Source: Thermodesulfobacterium geofontis (GTDB taxonomy: Bacteria > Desulfobacterota > Thermodesulfobacteria > Thermodesulfobacteriales > Thermodesulfobacteriaceae). Taken from it: a stretch of DNA of 37,141 nucleotides. The stretch is taken from NCBI GenBank assembly GCA_002877985.1, contig PNIK01000004.1, positions 1 to 37,141 of the forward strand, given 5' to 3'. The notes beneath the pieces are model-generated. The model was given only the letters and a program-made list of their open reading frames with translations, did not search any database and had not been told where the DNA came from. A program made the position numbers and the translations under genes. This document shows, one piece after another, positions 2,628 through 10,462 of the stretch (position 1 is its first letter; each line of letters starts with the position of its first letter).

Positions 2628-3203
2628 ATGCACGAAAAAATCAAAAAAAAAGGAAGAAAACCAAAAGAGACTCCAGAAGGAAGAAAAAGGGAAATTTTAG
2701 AAATTGTAGATAGAGATTGTAATCCTGTTAGTATTCTAAACAGAGAAAATATTCATAAGAAAGGTTTTTTTCATAAAGCTGTTCATATATTCCTTTTTAA
2801 TGAAAATGGAGAAATATATCTTCAAAAAAAATCCACAACAATGGATGAAAATCCAGGGCTTTGGACTTCATCAGCTTCTGGACATGTATTAGCTGGTGAA
2901 GGTGTTTTAATCTCAGCACAAAGAGAATTAAAGGAGGAACTCTCTATAAAGGTAAAACTTAGAAAAATTTTAGAACTACCTCCTTCAAAGGAAACAAATA
3001 TGCAATGTATATCTTTATTTGTAGGATATACCAAAAAAAATCCCAACCCAAACCCCCTTGAGATAGAAGAGGGAAGATTTTTCTCTATAAAAGAAGTTGA
3101 GGAACTTCTTCAAACTAATCCTGAAACCTTTTCTCCTACTTTTCGCTTTCTCTGGAGAAAATATTGGGAAATTGTTTCTCAAAAAGATAGCTTGGAAAAG
3201 TAA
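2628..3203 (+). CDS. NUDIX hydrolase (YfcD / isopentenyl-diphosphate isomerase-like)
   Basis: Nudix box GHVLAGEGVLISAQRELKEELSI; IDI/YfcD-like context HKAVHIFLFNENGEIYLQKKS. Confidence 0.85.
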   Translation: MHEKIKKKGRKPKETPEGRKREILEIVDRDCNPVSILNRENIHKKGFFHKAVHIFLFNENGEIYLQKKSTTMDENPGLWTSSASGHVLAGEGVLISAQRELKEELSIKVKLRKILELPPSKETNMQCISLFVGYTKKNPNPNPLEIEEGRFFSIKEVEELLQTNPETFSPTFRFLWRKYWEIVSQKDSLEK

Positions 3204-3831
3204 GTCCCTCTTTCTCAATTAAAACTTTCAATAACTTAAGGTCTCCATATTTGATATAACGGGTAATAGGTGCTAAAGCAAATTTTTGAAGTTTTTTTTC
3301 TTTTTCCTCAGCTGGAAGATTTAATTCCATAATCTGTTTTCTTAAGCTTTTCATAAGTTCTAAAAATAGAATATATTCTTCTCCTATTATTTCTTCCAAA
3401 GTTTCTCTAATTCTTCTTGCTACAGCAGGACTTACTCCAGAAGTAGAAATGGCAATAGTTAAAAAACCTCTTCTTATAATCGAAGGAACTATAAAACTGC
3501 AAAGTTCAGGAACATCAACTACATTACAAAAAATGTGTTTTTCTTCTGCTTCTTGAGATATCTCTTTTTGTACCTCAGGATCATTTGTTGCTGCAATAAC
3601 TAACCAGGCTGAATCAAGATCTCCCTTTTTATAAGTTCTTTTCTCCCATTCAATTTTTCCTTCTTCAGTTAATTTTTTAAGTACAGGTGTTAGATCTGGT
3701 GAAATAACCTTTACTTTTGCCTTAACCTTAAGTAGATTTTCTACCTTTCTTTCTGCAACCTTCCCCCCACCTATTACTATACAAAGTTTATCTTTAAGAT
3801 TTAAAAAAACAGGAAAAAATTGATCAATCAA
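3136..3831 (-). CDS. Precorrin-2 dehydrogenase / sirohydrochlorin ferrochelatase (CysG N-terminal / Met8-like)
   Basis: NAD-binding start FPVFLNLKDKLCIVIGGGKVAERKVENLL, CNVVDVPELCSFIVPSIIRRGFLTIAISTSGVSPAVARRIRE. Starts with TTG behind GGGGAG and overlaps the upstream ligase gene by 8 nt. Confidence 0.9.
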   Translation of the reverse strand: MIDQFFPVFLNLKDKLCIVIGGGKVAERKVENLLKVKAKVKVISPDLTPVLKKLTEEGKIEWEKRTYKKGDLDSAWLVIAATNDPEVQKEISQEAEEKHIFCNVVDVPELCSFIVPSIIRRGFLTIAISTSGVSPAVARRIRETLEEIIGEEYILFLELMKSLRKQIMELNLPAEEKEKKLQKFALAPITRYIKYGDLKLLKVLIEKEGLTFPSYLFEKQFPNIFSRESEK

Positions 3832-4978
3832 TTTCTCCCCACCCCTCCAATTTAGATTTCCAGAATTGAGTTGCCCTTGGGTATATTTTGGTAAACTCTA
3901 CATGTAAATATCCATTTTTCCATTCTGTTTTCTTTATTTCTACACTTACTTTAGCTAAACGAAAATGAGCAAGCATAGCAAGAAAATTCTTTTCTCTTTT
4001 AAATCTAACTTTAAAGGTTTCTTGTAATGGTTTTTCTGTTTTAAAAATTTCTATGGTTTCTTCAAATATATTTTTTCCAAGAATATTATAAACTTCCTCT
4101 TTAAATTCTTCAAATTCATAAAGATTGAGTGCAAGTCTTATTAATCTTAACGATACAAAGTGTGGATCTATCTCTCCAAGATAAGGAAAAACCACTTTTA
4201 AATCTTCAAGATTAGAAAAAGGGGTTACATATTTAATTCTTGAACCCTGATAATCTGGTTTAAAAACTACTCCTTCTCTCTTTTCAAAATGATATCTTTT
4301 AAGAAGATTCCTTATTTTTTCATAATCCCTTTCTGGATCAAATGGTCCCTGTATTTCCGGGAAATTTAATTTATATTTTTTTAAAAGTTTTAGCTTTTCA
4401 GATACATTTAAAAATTCCCCTCCACCTTTTTTCATAAAATCAAATACAAAAAAATTAATATCTTCTTTAATATAAGATGGATATTCATTAACAAAAGGAT
4501 TTTCAGGCCCTGCAACTTCTGCACATACTACTAAATCAGGATTCTCCTCAAAAAATCTCGGTAGCTGAGGTAAAAAATCTTCCCACCTATCAGTAGCAAA
4601 GGCACATACATATCCTCTTCTGGTGAAGGCAAGAATTTCATCTTCAACCTTGATAAGTCTCACATTATATCCCTCTATTTTTTCTTCTGCATAAAAAGGG
4701 TAAGTTAAATATCTTTTGAGTCCTGTTTTTAATACATAAATTCTTGGAATATGAGGATATCCTGGAATCAAAAAATTTTCATTAAAAAATGTTCCCATTG
4801 TAAAACTTTTGAAATCTTTGTTGAGTCTAAAAAAGTTTTTTTCTTTCCAATTGAAAAATAGAATTTTTCCTTTAAAGTAAGCCTCTTCCCAGTCTTTTAG
4901 GGAATATTTTTTTAAATAAGGATTTTTTGTCCAACAATATTTTAAATATTCCAATATTTCCTTATCATTTTCTCTCAA
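3824..4978 (-). CDS. ATP-dependent RNA ligase, Pab1020/MthRnl (Rnl3) family
   Basis: Nucleotidyltransferase motif I EEKIEGYNVRL, motif III-like FFVFDFMKKG, motif IV REGVVFKP, motif V GSRIKYV. TTG start with SD GGGGAGGT located in the 3' end of the upstream rtcA. Confidence 0.88.
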   Translation of the reverse strand: MRENDKEILEYLKYCWTKNPYLKKYSLKDWEEAYFKGKILFFNWKEKNFFRLNKDFKSFTMGTFFNENFLIPGYPHIPRIYVLKTGLKRYLTYPFYAEEKIEGYNVRLIKVEDEILAFTRRGYVCAFATDRWEDFLPQLPRFFEENPDLVVCAEVAGPENPFVNEYPSYIKEDINFFVFDFMKKGGGEFLNVSEKLKLLKKYKLNFPEIQGPFDPERDYEKIRNLLKRYHFEKREGVVFKPDYQGSRIKYVTPFSNLEDLKVVFPYLGEIDPHFVSLRLIRLALNLYEFEEFKEEVYNILGKNIFEETIEIFKTEKPLQETFKVRFKREKNFLAMLAHFRLAKVSVEIKKTEWKNGYLHVEFTKIYPRATQFWKSKLEGWGEID

Positions 4979-6023
4979 TTTCCACCTCCCCAGGTTCTCC
5001 TTCTTTTCCTGAAATTTTTATAGCAATTTTTTCTAAAAATTGAGGAATAAGCCAAGCTTGAGTAAGAAGATGTTTTGTAATCTTACAAATTGTAAAAGAA
5101 AATCCTTTTTCAATACTATTTATTAAAACAAAACTTAAAGGAATTAATATTTGATCTGCCAAGTGTTCTTCAAATTGAGCCTTTGTTTTTATAAATTCTA
5201 AAAATTTATAAACTGCATTTTCCCCTACTTTTTCTGCAGGATATCCTTTTTTCCCAAGTTCGGAAAATCCTGCTCTTTTTACCTTATCTTTATCAACAGC
5301 GTAAACAAAAACCATAGTACCTGAAGAATCACTTTTAACTCTTTCAAAAATTTCATCACTCGGCTCTAAGTTTTTTTCAAGAAGCTTTTTCTTTGCTGAA
5401 TTCATCTGCCTTTCAAGAATATGATGGGGTAAATCTTCTGAAACCATGCTGTGAATATAAATATTCTCTGGTAAAAATTCTTTACCCATATCTGGTAAAA
5501 TAAATTTATTCCATGGCAAAATGCTTACCCTTATTTTTCCCCCTCCTTTTGGATAAAATCCTGCTTTTTCAAGCTGAACCTCTGCTTTTAAGCCCAAAAC
5601 TTCAACAAAAGGTAAAAATACATATTTTATGTAGTGAAAAGAAGGGCTGAAAGGAACATGAGTTCCACCCTTAAGGATCAACTCTCCTCCCTCTGATAAA
5701 GCTAAGGGATAAAGTAGGGTTTGAAAAAGAAGAGAAGTTGAGCCTGCTGTTTTTATATTAAAAGTATATATAAGTTTTGCCGGCTTTTTCTTTGGAATAA
5801 AAACTATTTCTGTAGAATTAAGCTCTGCTCCGCTAACTTCTGCTTTTGAAATCTCTGCGCAGGCTTTCACACAGGCTAAATGCTGAGGTTGAAGACCTGG
5901 TTTTGGTCTGTTTTTTCTTATATTAAAAATCCTAAAAGGCTTATTTAACACTACAGAGAGAGAAAGACAAGTTCTTAAAACCTGTCCCCCTCCTTCTCCG
6001 TAAGAACCATCTATTAAAAGCAT
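4965..6023 (-). CDS. rtcA: RNA 3'-terminal phosphate cyclase
   Basis: IDGSYGEGGGQVLRTCLSLS, NIRKNRPKPGLQPQHL, KAGFYPKGGGKI, EEHLADQILIPL and the catalytic-His region KHLLTQ. ORF track starts at 6038 (GTG); the ATG at 6023 (MLLIDGSYGEGG) is preferred. Confidence 0.95.
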   Translation of the reverse strand: MLLIDGSYGEGGGQVLRTCLSLSVVLNKPFRIFNIRKNRPKPGLQPQHLACVKACAEISKAEVSGAELNSTEIVFIPKKKPAKLIYTFNIKTAGSTSLLFQTLLYPLALSEGGELILKGGTHVPFSPSFHYIKYVFLPFVEVLGLKAEVQLEKAGFYPKGGGKIRVSILPWNKFILPDMGKEFLPENIYIHSMVSEDLPHHILERQMNSAKKKLLEKNLEPSDEIFERVKSDSSGTMVFVYAVDKDKVKRAGFSELGKKGYPAEKVGENAVYKFLEFIKTKAQFEEHLADQILIPLSFVLINSIEKGFSFTICKITKHLLTQAWLIPQFLEKIAIKISGKEGEPGEVEIERK

Positions 6024-6027
6024 TGTA

Positions 6028-6744
6028 TTATTCTTCACTTTCTAAGTCTTTAATTTCTTTAACTAAAATCTCTACTAATTTATTTGCAAGAAATTTGCCT
6101 TTTTCTTTAGATGCTTTTAATGGATTACCCCATATTCCTGAAGACCAATATTTTTTCTTGTCAGCAACTACTCTAAACTTAGGAAAATTTGGATAATCCT
6201 CAAAAGCTCCCTCTTTTACAAGTTCTGGTTTAAAATAAAGAATAAGAGAAGTCTCCCACTCTCCTGCATGAGAATCATTCTCAAAAATTTTCAATTCTTC
6301 TAAAACTGGTTTTAAAAGTTGATATATGTCTGCAACAAAAAACTTTGCATCATCATGCATTTCAATAAAAGTTTCTGCAGTATCAATTAAATAGGCTTTG
6401 TGAGTTCCGCCAGCATGTCCTGAGAGAATAAAAAAATTTCTAAATCCCTGCCTATAAAACTCAGAAATAATGTTTAAAAGCAAAGTTTTTAAAATTTCAC
6501 CTTTTATACTAATAGTTCCAGCAAGAGGTTTGGTACTTCTGCAAAGTCCGTAATACAATGGTGGTGCCACAAGAACTTTTATTTTTTGGGCAACAAGTTT
6601 GCAAATTTCATAAATAGTATAAAGATCCGTAGCTAAAGGAAGATGAGGACCGTGAGCTTCAATAGAACCAATAGGTATGATAACTGTTTTTGTTTCCTTT
6701 TTAAGCTTTTCAAACTCCTTAGAAGTAAGATATTCCATTAACAT
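6028..6744 (-). CDS. Creatininase-family amidohydrolase
   Basis: IIPIGSIEAHGPHLPLATDLYTIYEI, FFILSGHAGGTHKAYLIDTA, DSHAGEWETSLIL. ATG at 6744 (MLMEYLTSKEF) follows GGGAG; the longer ORF would overlap miaB. Confidence 0.88.
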   Translation of the reverse strand: MLMEYLTSKEFEKLKKETKTVIIPIGSIEAHGPHLPLATDLYTIYEICKLVAQKIKVLVAPPLYYGLCRSTKPLAGTISIKGEILKTLLLNIISEFYRQGFRNFFILSGHAGGTHKAYLIDTAETFIEMHDDAKFFVADIYQLLKPVLEELKIFENDSHAGEWETSLILYFKPELVKEGAFEDYPNFPKFRVVADKKKYWSSGIWGNPLKASKEKGKFLANKLVEILVKEIKDLESEE

Positions 6745-6799
6745 AATATTCTCCCTTGGTTTGAAAATTATTTTAAAGTGAATTATATTTATTTTGGCC

Positions 6800-8146
6800 A
6801 TGAAAAAAAGGGTTTATATAAAAACTTTTGGCTGTCAGATGAATGAAAATGATACGGAGAAAATATATATTTTACTCTCAGATGAATATGAAGCTACCTC
6901 TAATCCGGAGGAAGCGGATCTTATTTTGATAAATACCTGCTCTGTAAGAGAAAAACCGCAGCACAAAGTTTATAGTGAAGCAGGAAGATATAAGCCTCTT
7001 AAGAAAAAAAATCCGGATTTGATTATAGGTATAACAGGTTGTGTTGCTCAGCAAGAAGGTGAAAATATAATAAAAAAGCTTCCTTATGTGGATATTGTCC
7101 TGGGGACTCAAGGATTTTACTTTATAAAAGAAGCCTTAGAAACATTCAAAAAAACAAAAAAGCCGGTTGTTTTTACTGAACTAAAACCTGATTTCAAGCC
7201 TCCTTTAATCCTTAAAGATGATAAAAATTCTGTTTTTACTGATAGAAAGGTCACTGCCTTTGTAACCATTATGCAAGGATGTGACAATTTTTGTTCTTAC
7301 TGTATTGTCCCTTATGTAAGAGGAAAAGAAATAAGTAGACCTCCAGAAGATATACTAAAAGAAGTAGAAGCTCTTGTAAAAATGGGAGTAAGAGAGGTAA
7401 CTCTTTTAGGTCAAAATGTAAATTCTTATGGTCTTAAAGAAAAGGGATATCCGGATTTTGCAGAACTTTTGGAAATGGTTTCTCAAATAGAGGGGCTCTG
7501 GAGAATAAGATTTACTACAAGTCATCCTAAGGACCTTTCAGAGAAGCTGATAAAGGTTATGGCTGAAAATCCAAAGGTATGTAAACATATTCACCTCCCT
7601 TTGCAAGCTGGTTCTAATAAGATTCTTAAAAAAATGAACAGAAAATATACTAAAGAGGATTATCTTGAAAAAATAAGAAAATTAAGAACTGCGATTCCTG
7701 AAATAGGTATTACAACTGATATTATAGTAGGATTTCCAGGAGAAACAGAAGAAGATTTTAAAGAAACTGTAGAAATGCTTGAAAAAGTGAGATATCAGGA
7801 AATTTTTTCTTTTAAATATTCAGATAGACCCTTTACTTTAGCTCAAAAATTGAATAATAAAATTCCTGAAGAAGTAAAAGAAAGAAGACTCAAAATAATT
7901 CATGAAACTCAAGCAAAAATAACTAAAGAAATTTACGAATCCTATGTAGGAAAAGAAGTAGAGGTTCTGGTTGAAGATTATAGTGCTAAAAATAAAGAAA
8001 AGCTTATGGGAAGAACAACCACAAACATCATTGTAAACTTTAATACCCCGCGTCTTGATTTAAAGGGTGCCTTAGTTAAAGTATTAATCACCGAAGCCGG
8101 AAAACATTCCCTTAAAGGTGAATATCTAAAGACTTTAAAAATTTAA
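6800..8146 (+). CDS. miaB: tRNA (N6-isopentenyl adenosine(37)-C2)-methylthiotransferase MiaB
   Basis: N-terminal YIKTFGCQMNENDTEKI, radical-SAM CxxxCxxC (CDNFCSYCIVPYVRGKEISR), C-terminal TRAM region. ATG at 6800. Confidence 0.96.
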   Translation: MKKRVYIKTFGCQMNENDTEKIYILLSDEYEATSNPEEADLILINTCSVREKPQHKVYSEAGRYKPLKKKNPDLIIGITGCVAQQEGENIIKKLPYVDIVLGTQGFYFIKEALETFKKTKKPVVFTELKPDFKPPLILKDDKNSVFTDRKVTAFVTIMQGCDNFCSYCIVPYVRGKEISRPPEDILKEVEALVKMGVREVTLLGQNVNSYGLKEKGYPDFAELLEMVSQIEGLWRIRFTTSHPKDLSEKLIKVMAENPKVCKHIHLPLQAGSNKILKKMNRKYTKEDYLEKIRKLRTAIPEIGITTDIIVGFPGETEEDFKETVEMLEKVRYQEIFSFKYSDRPFTLAQKLNNKIPEEVKERRLKIIHETQAKITKEIYESYVGKEVEVLVEDYSAKNKEKLMGRTTTNIIVNFNTPRLDLKGALVKVLITEAGKHSLKGEYLKTLKI

Positions 8147-8728: not shown

Positions 8729-9154
8729 ATGAAACCTCTTGTTTTTTTAAGTTTTTTTTTGTTATTTTTATTTTTTCCTTTTTCAGTTAAGGCTGATAAT
8801 TTTTCTCATCTACAAATCTTTGAGGGTTATGATCCCAATACAGAAATTCTTATAAAAGGAAAAATTAAAAATGTTCAAATTTTACCTGAGAATAATTTTG
8901 TAGTTTTAGATTTAGAAAGAGAGGGAAAAATTTATAAGGTGATCTTGGGTCCTCAATGGTTTGTAAATGAAGAAAAGATAAATATTGAACCAGGAGAGGA
9001 AGTAATTATAAAAGGTTCTAAATTTTTTTCTGAAAAGAGAGGACCTTTTATTCTTACAAATACCCTATATTCTATAAATAAAGAACGGATTTATTACTTA
9101 AGAACCAAGGATTTTAAACCCCGTTGGAAAAAGAAAAAATTAAGAGGTTTCTAA
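8729..9154 (+). CDS. Small secreted protein, possibly OB-fold-like
   Basis: Signal peptide MKPLVFLSFFLLFLFFPFSVKA; beta-rich GKIKNVQILPENNFVVLDLEREGKIYKVILGP...GEEVIIKGSKF. ATG at 8729 preferred over the ORF-track start at 8693. Confidence 0.5.
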   Translation: MKPLVFLSFFLLFLFFPFSVKADNFSHLQIFEGYDPNTEILIKGKIKNVQILPENNFVVLDLEREGKIYKVILGPQWFVNEEKINIEPGEEVIIKGSKFFSEKRGPFILTNTLYSINKERIYYLRTKDFKPRWKKKKLRGF

Positions 9155-10462
9155 ATTATATTCTTTGATTTTATAATAAAGAGTTCTAAGAGAAATTCCC
9201 AGAAGTTCAGCTGCTTTTTTCTTATTGCCTCCTGTTTTTCTCAAAGCTTCTAAGATAGCTCTTTTCTCAAGTTCTCTTAGGCTTTCAGATTTTTCTTCAT
9301 TTTTTAGTATTTTCCCTCTATCAAAAATTTCTATCTCTATATTTAATTCTTTACCTTTAGCTAAAATAAAACTTCTTTCCAATATATTTTCAAGCTCTCT
9401 TATGTTTCCTGGCCAAGAATAATTTTTTAAGATTTCCTTTGATTTTTTACTTAGCTTCAAGGGTTCTCTTCCCAGTTTTTGAGAAAGTTTATTTATAAAA
9501 TATTCAGCAATTTTAAAAACTGCTTCCTTTCTTTCTCTTAAAGGCGGAATATTTATAGGAAATACATTTATTCTAAAATAAAGATCTTCTCTAAACTTTC
9601 CCTGTTTTACTAATTCCAAAAGATCCCTATTAGTGGCGACAACAAATCTTGCGTTTGTCTTTGTAGGTGTAAGTCCTCCTAATCTTTCAAAAGTTTTATC
9701 CTGTAAAACTCTTAAAAATTTTGCTTGGACTGAAGGACTCATTTCTGTTATCTCATCAAGAAAAAGAGTTCCATCCTTTGCCAATTCTATTTTGCCAGGT
9801 TTAGATTTTATAGCCCCAGAAAAAGCTCCTTTTTCATATCCAAAAAGTTCTGATTCTATGAGGGTTTCAGGAATAGCAGCACAATTTATTTCTACAAAAT
9901 TTCCCTTTCTTCCACTGAGAACATGTATAGCCCTGGCAATAGCAGATTTACCTGTTCCTGTCTCACCATAAAGAATTACTGTTGTTTCAGTTGGAGCAAC
10001 TTGTATCACCTTTTCATAAACATCTTCTATTCCTGCAAATAAAATTTCAAAAGGTGGAAGTTCAAAAAGTTTTTCCAAAACTTTGATCTTTTCACGAGGT
10101 AATAATCTAGCAACCAAAGATAAAAAATCTTCTGGACTTGATAAAGGCTTTGTTATATAATCAACAGCTCCTTTTTTCATAGCTTCTACTGCTGAGGGAA
10201 TAGTTCCATAAGCAGTAATTACTATAAATTGAGTGTCAGGGAAAATAACTTTTGCTTTCTCTAAGAAGGTTATACCATCCATCTTAGGCATTTTTAAATC
10301 AGTGATAACAAGCTGAGGTGAAAAATCAGGTAACCTTTTTAAAGCAACTTCAGGATCGTGATAAACTTTAACCTTATATCCTTCTTCCTCAAGAATTGTC
10401 TTCAAAAAAGTGGCAAAAGAAACATCATCCTCAACTACGGCAATTCTGGGATAATCAGACAT
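9140..10462 (-). CDS. Sigma-54-dependent NtrC-family response regulator
   Basis: REC domain (VITDLKMPKMDG), AAA+ GETGTGKS, sigma-54 loop motif ESELFGYEKGAFSGA, C-terminal Fis-type HTH NKKKAAELLGISLRTLYYKI. Confidence 0.95.
   Translation of the reverse strand: MSDYPRIAVVEDDVSFATFLKTILEEEGYKVKVYHDPEVALKRLPDFSPQLVITDLKMPKMDGITFLEKAKVIFPDTQFIVITAYGTIPSAVEAMKKGAVDYITKPLSSPEDFLSLVARLLPREKIKVLEKLFELPPFEILFAGIEDVYEKVIQVAPTETTVILYGETGTGKSAIARAIHVLSGRKGNFVEINCAAIPETLIESELFGYEKGAFSGAIKSKPGKIELAKDGTLFLDEITEMSPSVQAKFLRVLQDKTFERLGGLTPTKTNARFVVATNRDLLELVKQGKFREDLYFRINVFPINIPPLRERKEAVFKIAEYFINKLSQKLGREPLKLSKKSKEILKNYSWPGNIRELENILERSFILAKGKELNIEIEIFDRGKILKNEEKSESLRELEKRAILEALRKTGGNKKKAAELLGISLRTLYYKIKEYNLETS

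Follow-up and report, generated by a model that had tools for sequence, protein, structure and literature searches.

Why does a bacterial genome carry the gene for an RNA 3'-terminal phosphate cyclase (rtcA) immediately ahead of one for an ATP-dependent RNA ligase of the Pab1020/MthRnl type (Rnl3), and could the two products act on the same RNAs? The question is raised by a stretch of 37,141 nucleotides (the whole of the DNA analysed, hereafter the window) from a genome whose closest named kin is Thermodesulfobacterium. A run of minus-strand genes in the window has the order creatininase-rtcA-ligase-cysG(N) and consists of the following features:

6028..6801, minus strand: creatininase-family amidohydrolase (PF02633)
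4965..6038, minus strand: rtcA, RNA 3'-terminal phosphate cyclase (TIGR03399, PF01137, PF05189)
4984..4991, minus strand: Shine-Dalgarno-like GGGGAGGT of the ligase, inside the last rtcA codons
3824..4978, minus strand: Rnl3-type ATP-dependent RNA ligase (Pab1020/MthRnl family), 384 aa, TTG start (TIGR01209, PF09414, PF18330)
3136..3831, minus strand: cysG-N, precorrin-2 dehydrogenase / siroheme synthase N-terminal domain (TIGR01470, 178 bits)

Two starts are possible for rtcA, GTG 6038 (357 aa) or ATG 6023 (352 aa), and the latter is separated by 4 nt from the creatininase gene upstream, whose own true start is probably an ATG within its first 20 codons. The rtcA and ligase genes overlap by 14 nt and the ligase and cysG-N genes by 8 nt. 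An earlier note on this DNA had placed the ribosome-binding signal and TTG start of the ligase within the end of rtcA and had proposed translational coupling. Both signals lie as described, with GGGGAGGT 5 nt before TTG 4978, and the overlap of the two genes is consistent with such coupling. Similar rtcA/ligase overlaps and TTG starts were observed in four relatives (L056, L058, L064 and L068), and no terminator-like site was found between rtcA and the ligase on the minus strand. Because the genes overlap, we infer that they share a single transcript. Promoter-like matches (19 versus 12.9 expected, sd 3.5) carried no weight in the analysis.

By its sequence the ligase is a member of the Rnl3 family, with a predicted ATP-dependent activity joining 5'-phosphate to 3'-OH RNA ends. 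It matched the curated-cut-off family model TIGR01209 over its full length with 299.8 bits (cut-off 136.9), as well as PF09414 and PF18330, the latter (4.7e-35) corresponding to the family-specific C-terminal region. The motif-I lysine K100, within EEKIEGYN, is invariant in alignments of the ligase with its relatives, as are E154, E235, K240 and K249, while REGVVFKP and IKYV are invariant in, or aligned with, these relatives; the nearest solved sequences are 3qwu, 8uce, 2vug and 5d1o. The 357-aa cyclase scored 314.3 bits against TIGR03399 (cut-off 250) and matched both PF01137 and the insert domain PF05189. It is distinct from Rcl1, the model of which gave 42 bits only, and in the alignment with E. 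coli RtcA (1qmh/3kgd) its KHLLT motif is matched to SCHLLT, where the catalytic His lies; its nearest solved sequence is 4o89. These matches bear out the description of both genes as intact in the earlier note. A putative ligase fusion in a relative (an 839-aa frame in G056) was rejected, the ligase matches falling in two frames and the remainder of the frame being unaligned.

The pairing is not a peculiarity of the window. In the order Thermodesulfobacteriales, 32 of the 38 ligase-bearing genomes have rtcA immediately upstream of the ligase in the same orientation, and 34 of the 38 have the two genes co-directional and no more than 1.8 kb apart, so that the adjacency for which the earlier note had proposed a search is indeed kept in relatives. 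Two genomes carry an insertion between rtcA and the ligase: about 1.1 kb in G248 and, in G100, the closest single-contig relative, a PMT_2-type membrane glycosyltransferase gene (L028, 6347-7885). The two genes are on separate contigs in G297 and G298, the contig ends in G302, and in G269 rtcA is far from the ligase, which is abutted by a convergent gene for the protein-only RNase P HARP (TIGR03875). Among 29 named loci of the order, rtcA is upstream of the ligase in 25 and HARP beside it in none. A ligase tree, built with a quick method and containing some weak branches as well as a long branch for G269, displays one change between a position next to HARP and a position next to rtcA. The ligase of a contig labelled Heimdallarchaeota (L078, JAMOVR010000164.1) nests among Thermodesulfobacteriales and that of a contig labelled Acidobacteria (L096, RFFP01000017.1) nests in Aquificaceae; both contigs are probably binning errors, or otherwise recent transfers.

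In order to weigh this conservation, we measured how often close co-directional neighbours remain adjacent between G100 (Thermodesulfobacterium group, together with the window) and G204 (f2 family). In a small sample of 400 kb from each genome, with 43 reciprocal best hits, 23 of 60 directed neighbours (38%) were still adjacent. Since more than a third of such neighbours persist, conserved adjacency alone is weak evidence, and we rejected it as proof of function.

The surroundings of the pair differ between lineages. Thermodesulfatator and Thermosulfurimonas display oppD-oppF-rtcA-ligase followed by a Cu/Zn permease gene, Caldimicrobium and the L060/L063 lineage fabG-rtcA-ligase-cysGN, and Thermodesulfobacterium, including the window, creatininase-rtcA-ligase-cysGN. 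Thermodesulfobacterium and Caldimicrobium thus both keep cysGN downstream of the ligase, and the first gene of the run is creatininase in Thermodesulfobacterium proper and fabG or oppDF in relatives. G269 has oppD-oppF-rtcA without the ligase, the latter being located elsewhere with HARP. If this represents the old state, the gene orders are most simply read as a joint departure of rtcA and the ligase from oppDF. G314, a draft genome (99% complete, 3% contamination), groups with the fabG-type L060/L063 (support 94/95) and has fabG directly preceding cysGN; this site without rtcA and the ligase lies inside a 100-kb contig. Searches of this genome did not find rtcA, the ligase or HARP, while RtcB and archease are present. 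The absence of HARP is less secure because the genome is a draft in which an RF00010 search did not find the bacterial RNase P RNA either. In G314 (L202, G314:C70, 4108-6368), the creatininase gene is directly followed by a repeat stretch resembling a CRISPR array, accompanied by Cas2, a gene of Cas4-Cas1-like type and one other gene. From these gene orders the rtcA-ligase pair appears to have changed context, from oppDF to fabG/cysG, and to have been lost as a block. Its survival through the flank changes and its joint absence from G314 add weight to the pairing, albeit as one single event each.

The distribution of the ligase points to another partner. Profile searches of 297 genomes of the phylum placed the ligase above cut-off in 15, and the genomes with HARP are exactly those 15, counts that are not independent since 12 of the 15 genomes belong to one order; RtcA was detected in 102 (13 of the 15 ligase-bearing and 89 of the 282 ligase-free genomes). 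The earlier note's proposal of RtcA as the partner of the ligase consequently stands as regards adjacency, whereas by co-occurrence the partner is HARP (15/15 versus 13/15). This linkage of a protein-only RNase P with a Pab1020-type ligase was published by Seshadri and Gopalan in 2025 (PMC12153264), and TIGR03875 itself carries the name 'RNA ligase partner'. The main text of that article makes no mention of RtcA or of Thermodesulfobacteriales, and we found no earlier report of an rtcA-Rnl3 linkage in the literature searched.

The window's genome also encodes HARP (G000:C49:20879-21436), which matches structures of RNA-free RNase P, the best being 7e8k (1.4e-55). Within the order, 36 of the 38 genomes with the ligase have HARP. 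The HARP and ligase genes are on different contigs in the window's genome; in relatives where a single contig carries both, more than 70 kb separates them, and within the order they abut only in G269. Of 51 named ligase loci outside the order, 35 have a convergent HARP gene immediately beside the ligase under the criterion applied here, and several of the remainder are truncated at a contig end; in none of the 51 does rtcA stand directly next to the ligase. RtcA was found in 23 and not found in 25 of 48 ligase-bearing genomes outside the order, a set drawn from those in which the ligase had been identified beforehand, many of them incomplete; RtcA is therefore not an obligate partner of the ligase. 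Several Aquificaceae (L094, L097 and L110) display the run rtcA-gyrA-purQ-ligase with a convergent HARP gene; the gyrA gene of L097 contains an intein with a LAGLIDADG domain. HARP was also considered as the sole RNase P of the order, and this was rejected on finding the bacterial RNase P RNA in 33 of 41 genomes; an RF00010 search did not find it in the window's draft genome (93.65% complete).

The statement in the earlier note that the window contains no RtcB holds; in the genome, the search that it had suggested revealed a single copy of RtcB on contig C44 and archease on contig C64; the absence is thus limited to the window, RtcB being encoded elsewhere. Across the order RtcB was detected in 38 of 41 genomes and archease in all 17 examined. 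The rtcB gene was not found beside rtcA, which is on contig C25, and the two genes are distant from each other in single-contig relatives. No RtcR sigma-54 activator was found next to rtcA. The nearest sigma-54 activator, a response regulator at 9140-10462, was rejected as RtcR, as it carries a receiver domain and scored 290 bits against an RtcR cut-off of 650.

We know of no established substrate for any bacterial Rnl3. Among characterized enzymes, Rnl3 joins 5'-phosphate to 3'-OH ends and can also make 2',3'-cyclic phosphates, MthRnl converting a 3'-phosphate into a cyclic end that RtcB can join, forming App-RNA and being able to strip 5'-AMP from it; RtcA likewise makes 2',3'-cyclic ends from 3'-phosphates (PMC5599603). 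In Thermococcus, Rnl3 deletion abolishes C/D box sRNA circularisation with no growth phenotype (PMC9014305). Functional cooperation of RtcA and Rnl3 is plausible in this light, and we give about an even chance to rtcA and the ligase being a co-expressed unit for sorting RNA ends, in which the ligase of a HARP-Rnl3 system has been brought under rtcA control while HARP stays in the genome (the G269 lineage excepted). From the biochemistry of the two families, Rnl3 would join 5'-phosphate to 3'-OH ends, either in repair or to circularise RNAs that have been cleaved, for example by HARP, and RtcA would turn 3'-phosphates into 2',3'-cyclic phosphates, ends that Rnl3 could not join and that RtcB and archease, encoded elsewhere, could join to 5'-OH. 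The pair may in this way direct RNAs that have been broken or processed to one of two sealing routes, ATP ligase or RtcB; the proposal excludes any claim of direct contact or substrate hand-off between RtcA and Rnl3. The intact domains and motifs, the gene overlap, the direct adjacency in most ligase-bearing genomes and the flanks that changed around the pair argue for such a unit. Counting against it, rtcA keeps oppDF and fabG, which are unrelated, as neighbours too, an insertion splits the pair in G100 and G248, the two genes lie apart in G297 and G298, and RtcA is common without the ligase in the phylum. Since the product of RtcA blocks Rnl3 joining, the two enzymes could also be merely parallel, and the sequence results fit sorting and mere co-transcription without shared substrates equally.

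The latter would be expected if the ligase had landed behind rtcA once, the rtcA promoter transcribing both genes with no shared pathway and the real partner of the ligase being HARP elsewhere in the genome, a history that we hold to be possible, though we doubt it. The exact coincidence of HARP and ligase in the phylum and their abutment in most loci outside the order (see also PMC12153264) suit it well, as do the baseline of neighbour retention, the other ligase-bearing bacteria that do not require RtcA, and the lack of an evident RNA link for creatininase, cysGN, fabG and oppDF. However, it is the pair and not its other neighbours that has persisted while the genes on either side changed and that seems to move and disappear as one unit, and its retention within the order is high.

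It seems unlikely that the HARP-Rnl3 system of these bacteria includes RtcA as a third component, with cleavage by HARP, preparation of the 3' end by RtcA and sealing by either Rnl3 or RtcB. This would amount to a bacterial RNA circularisation or repair pathway, in which rtcA, the ligase and HARP would be retained or lost as a set, something that the G314 assembly suggests, and the Aquificaceae run would fit it. RtcA can adenylylate RNA 5'-phosphates. A hand-off in which Rnl3 seals or deadenylates App-RNA so made, as a shared activated intermediate, draws on family biochemistry, namely this RtcA activity together with App-RNA formation and 5'-AMP removal by MthRnl (PMC5599603), and is most improbable, since Rnl3 can generate App-RNA for itself with ATP and does not depend on a supplier, and ligase-bearing bacteria without detectable RtcA exist.

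HARP and Rnl3 accompany each other in both bacteria and archaea, and here is a whole order in which the ligase would have moved from HARP to the genome's only rtcA, with RtcB and archease also present. As the order includes cultivated species, it offers a natural system for the substrate of a bacterial Rnl3 and the role of RtcA. When compared to the archaeal MthRnl, Pab1020 and TkoRnl, the window's ligase is alike in its ligase core, Pab1020-type C-terminal region, motif-I lysine and full length, and differs in being bacterial and in lying in an rtcA gene run; the part that archaeal Rnl3 plays in circularising C/D box sRNAs (PMC9014305) is not one that can simply be assumed for bacteria. With the HARP-Rnl3 system it shares the ligase family and the presence of HARP in the genome, the ligase being however located behind rtcA and not beside HARP. 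Finally, an intact RtcA, with RtcB and archease in the genome, is held in common with the RtcR-controlled rtcBA RNA repair operon of the E. coli type, but whereas that operon pairs RtcA with RtcB, the window pairs it with a predicted ATP-dependent 5'-phosphate/3'-OH ligase.
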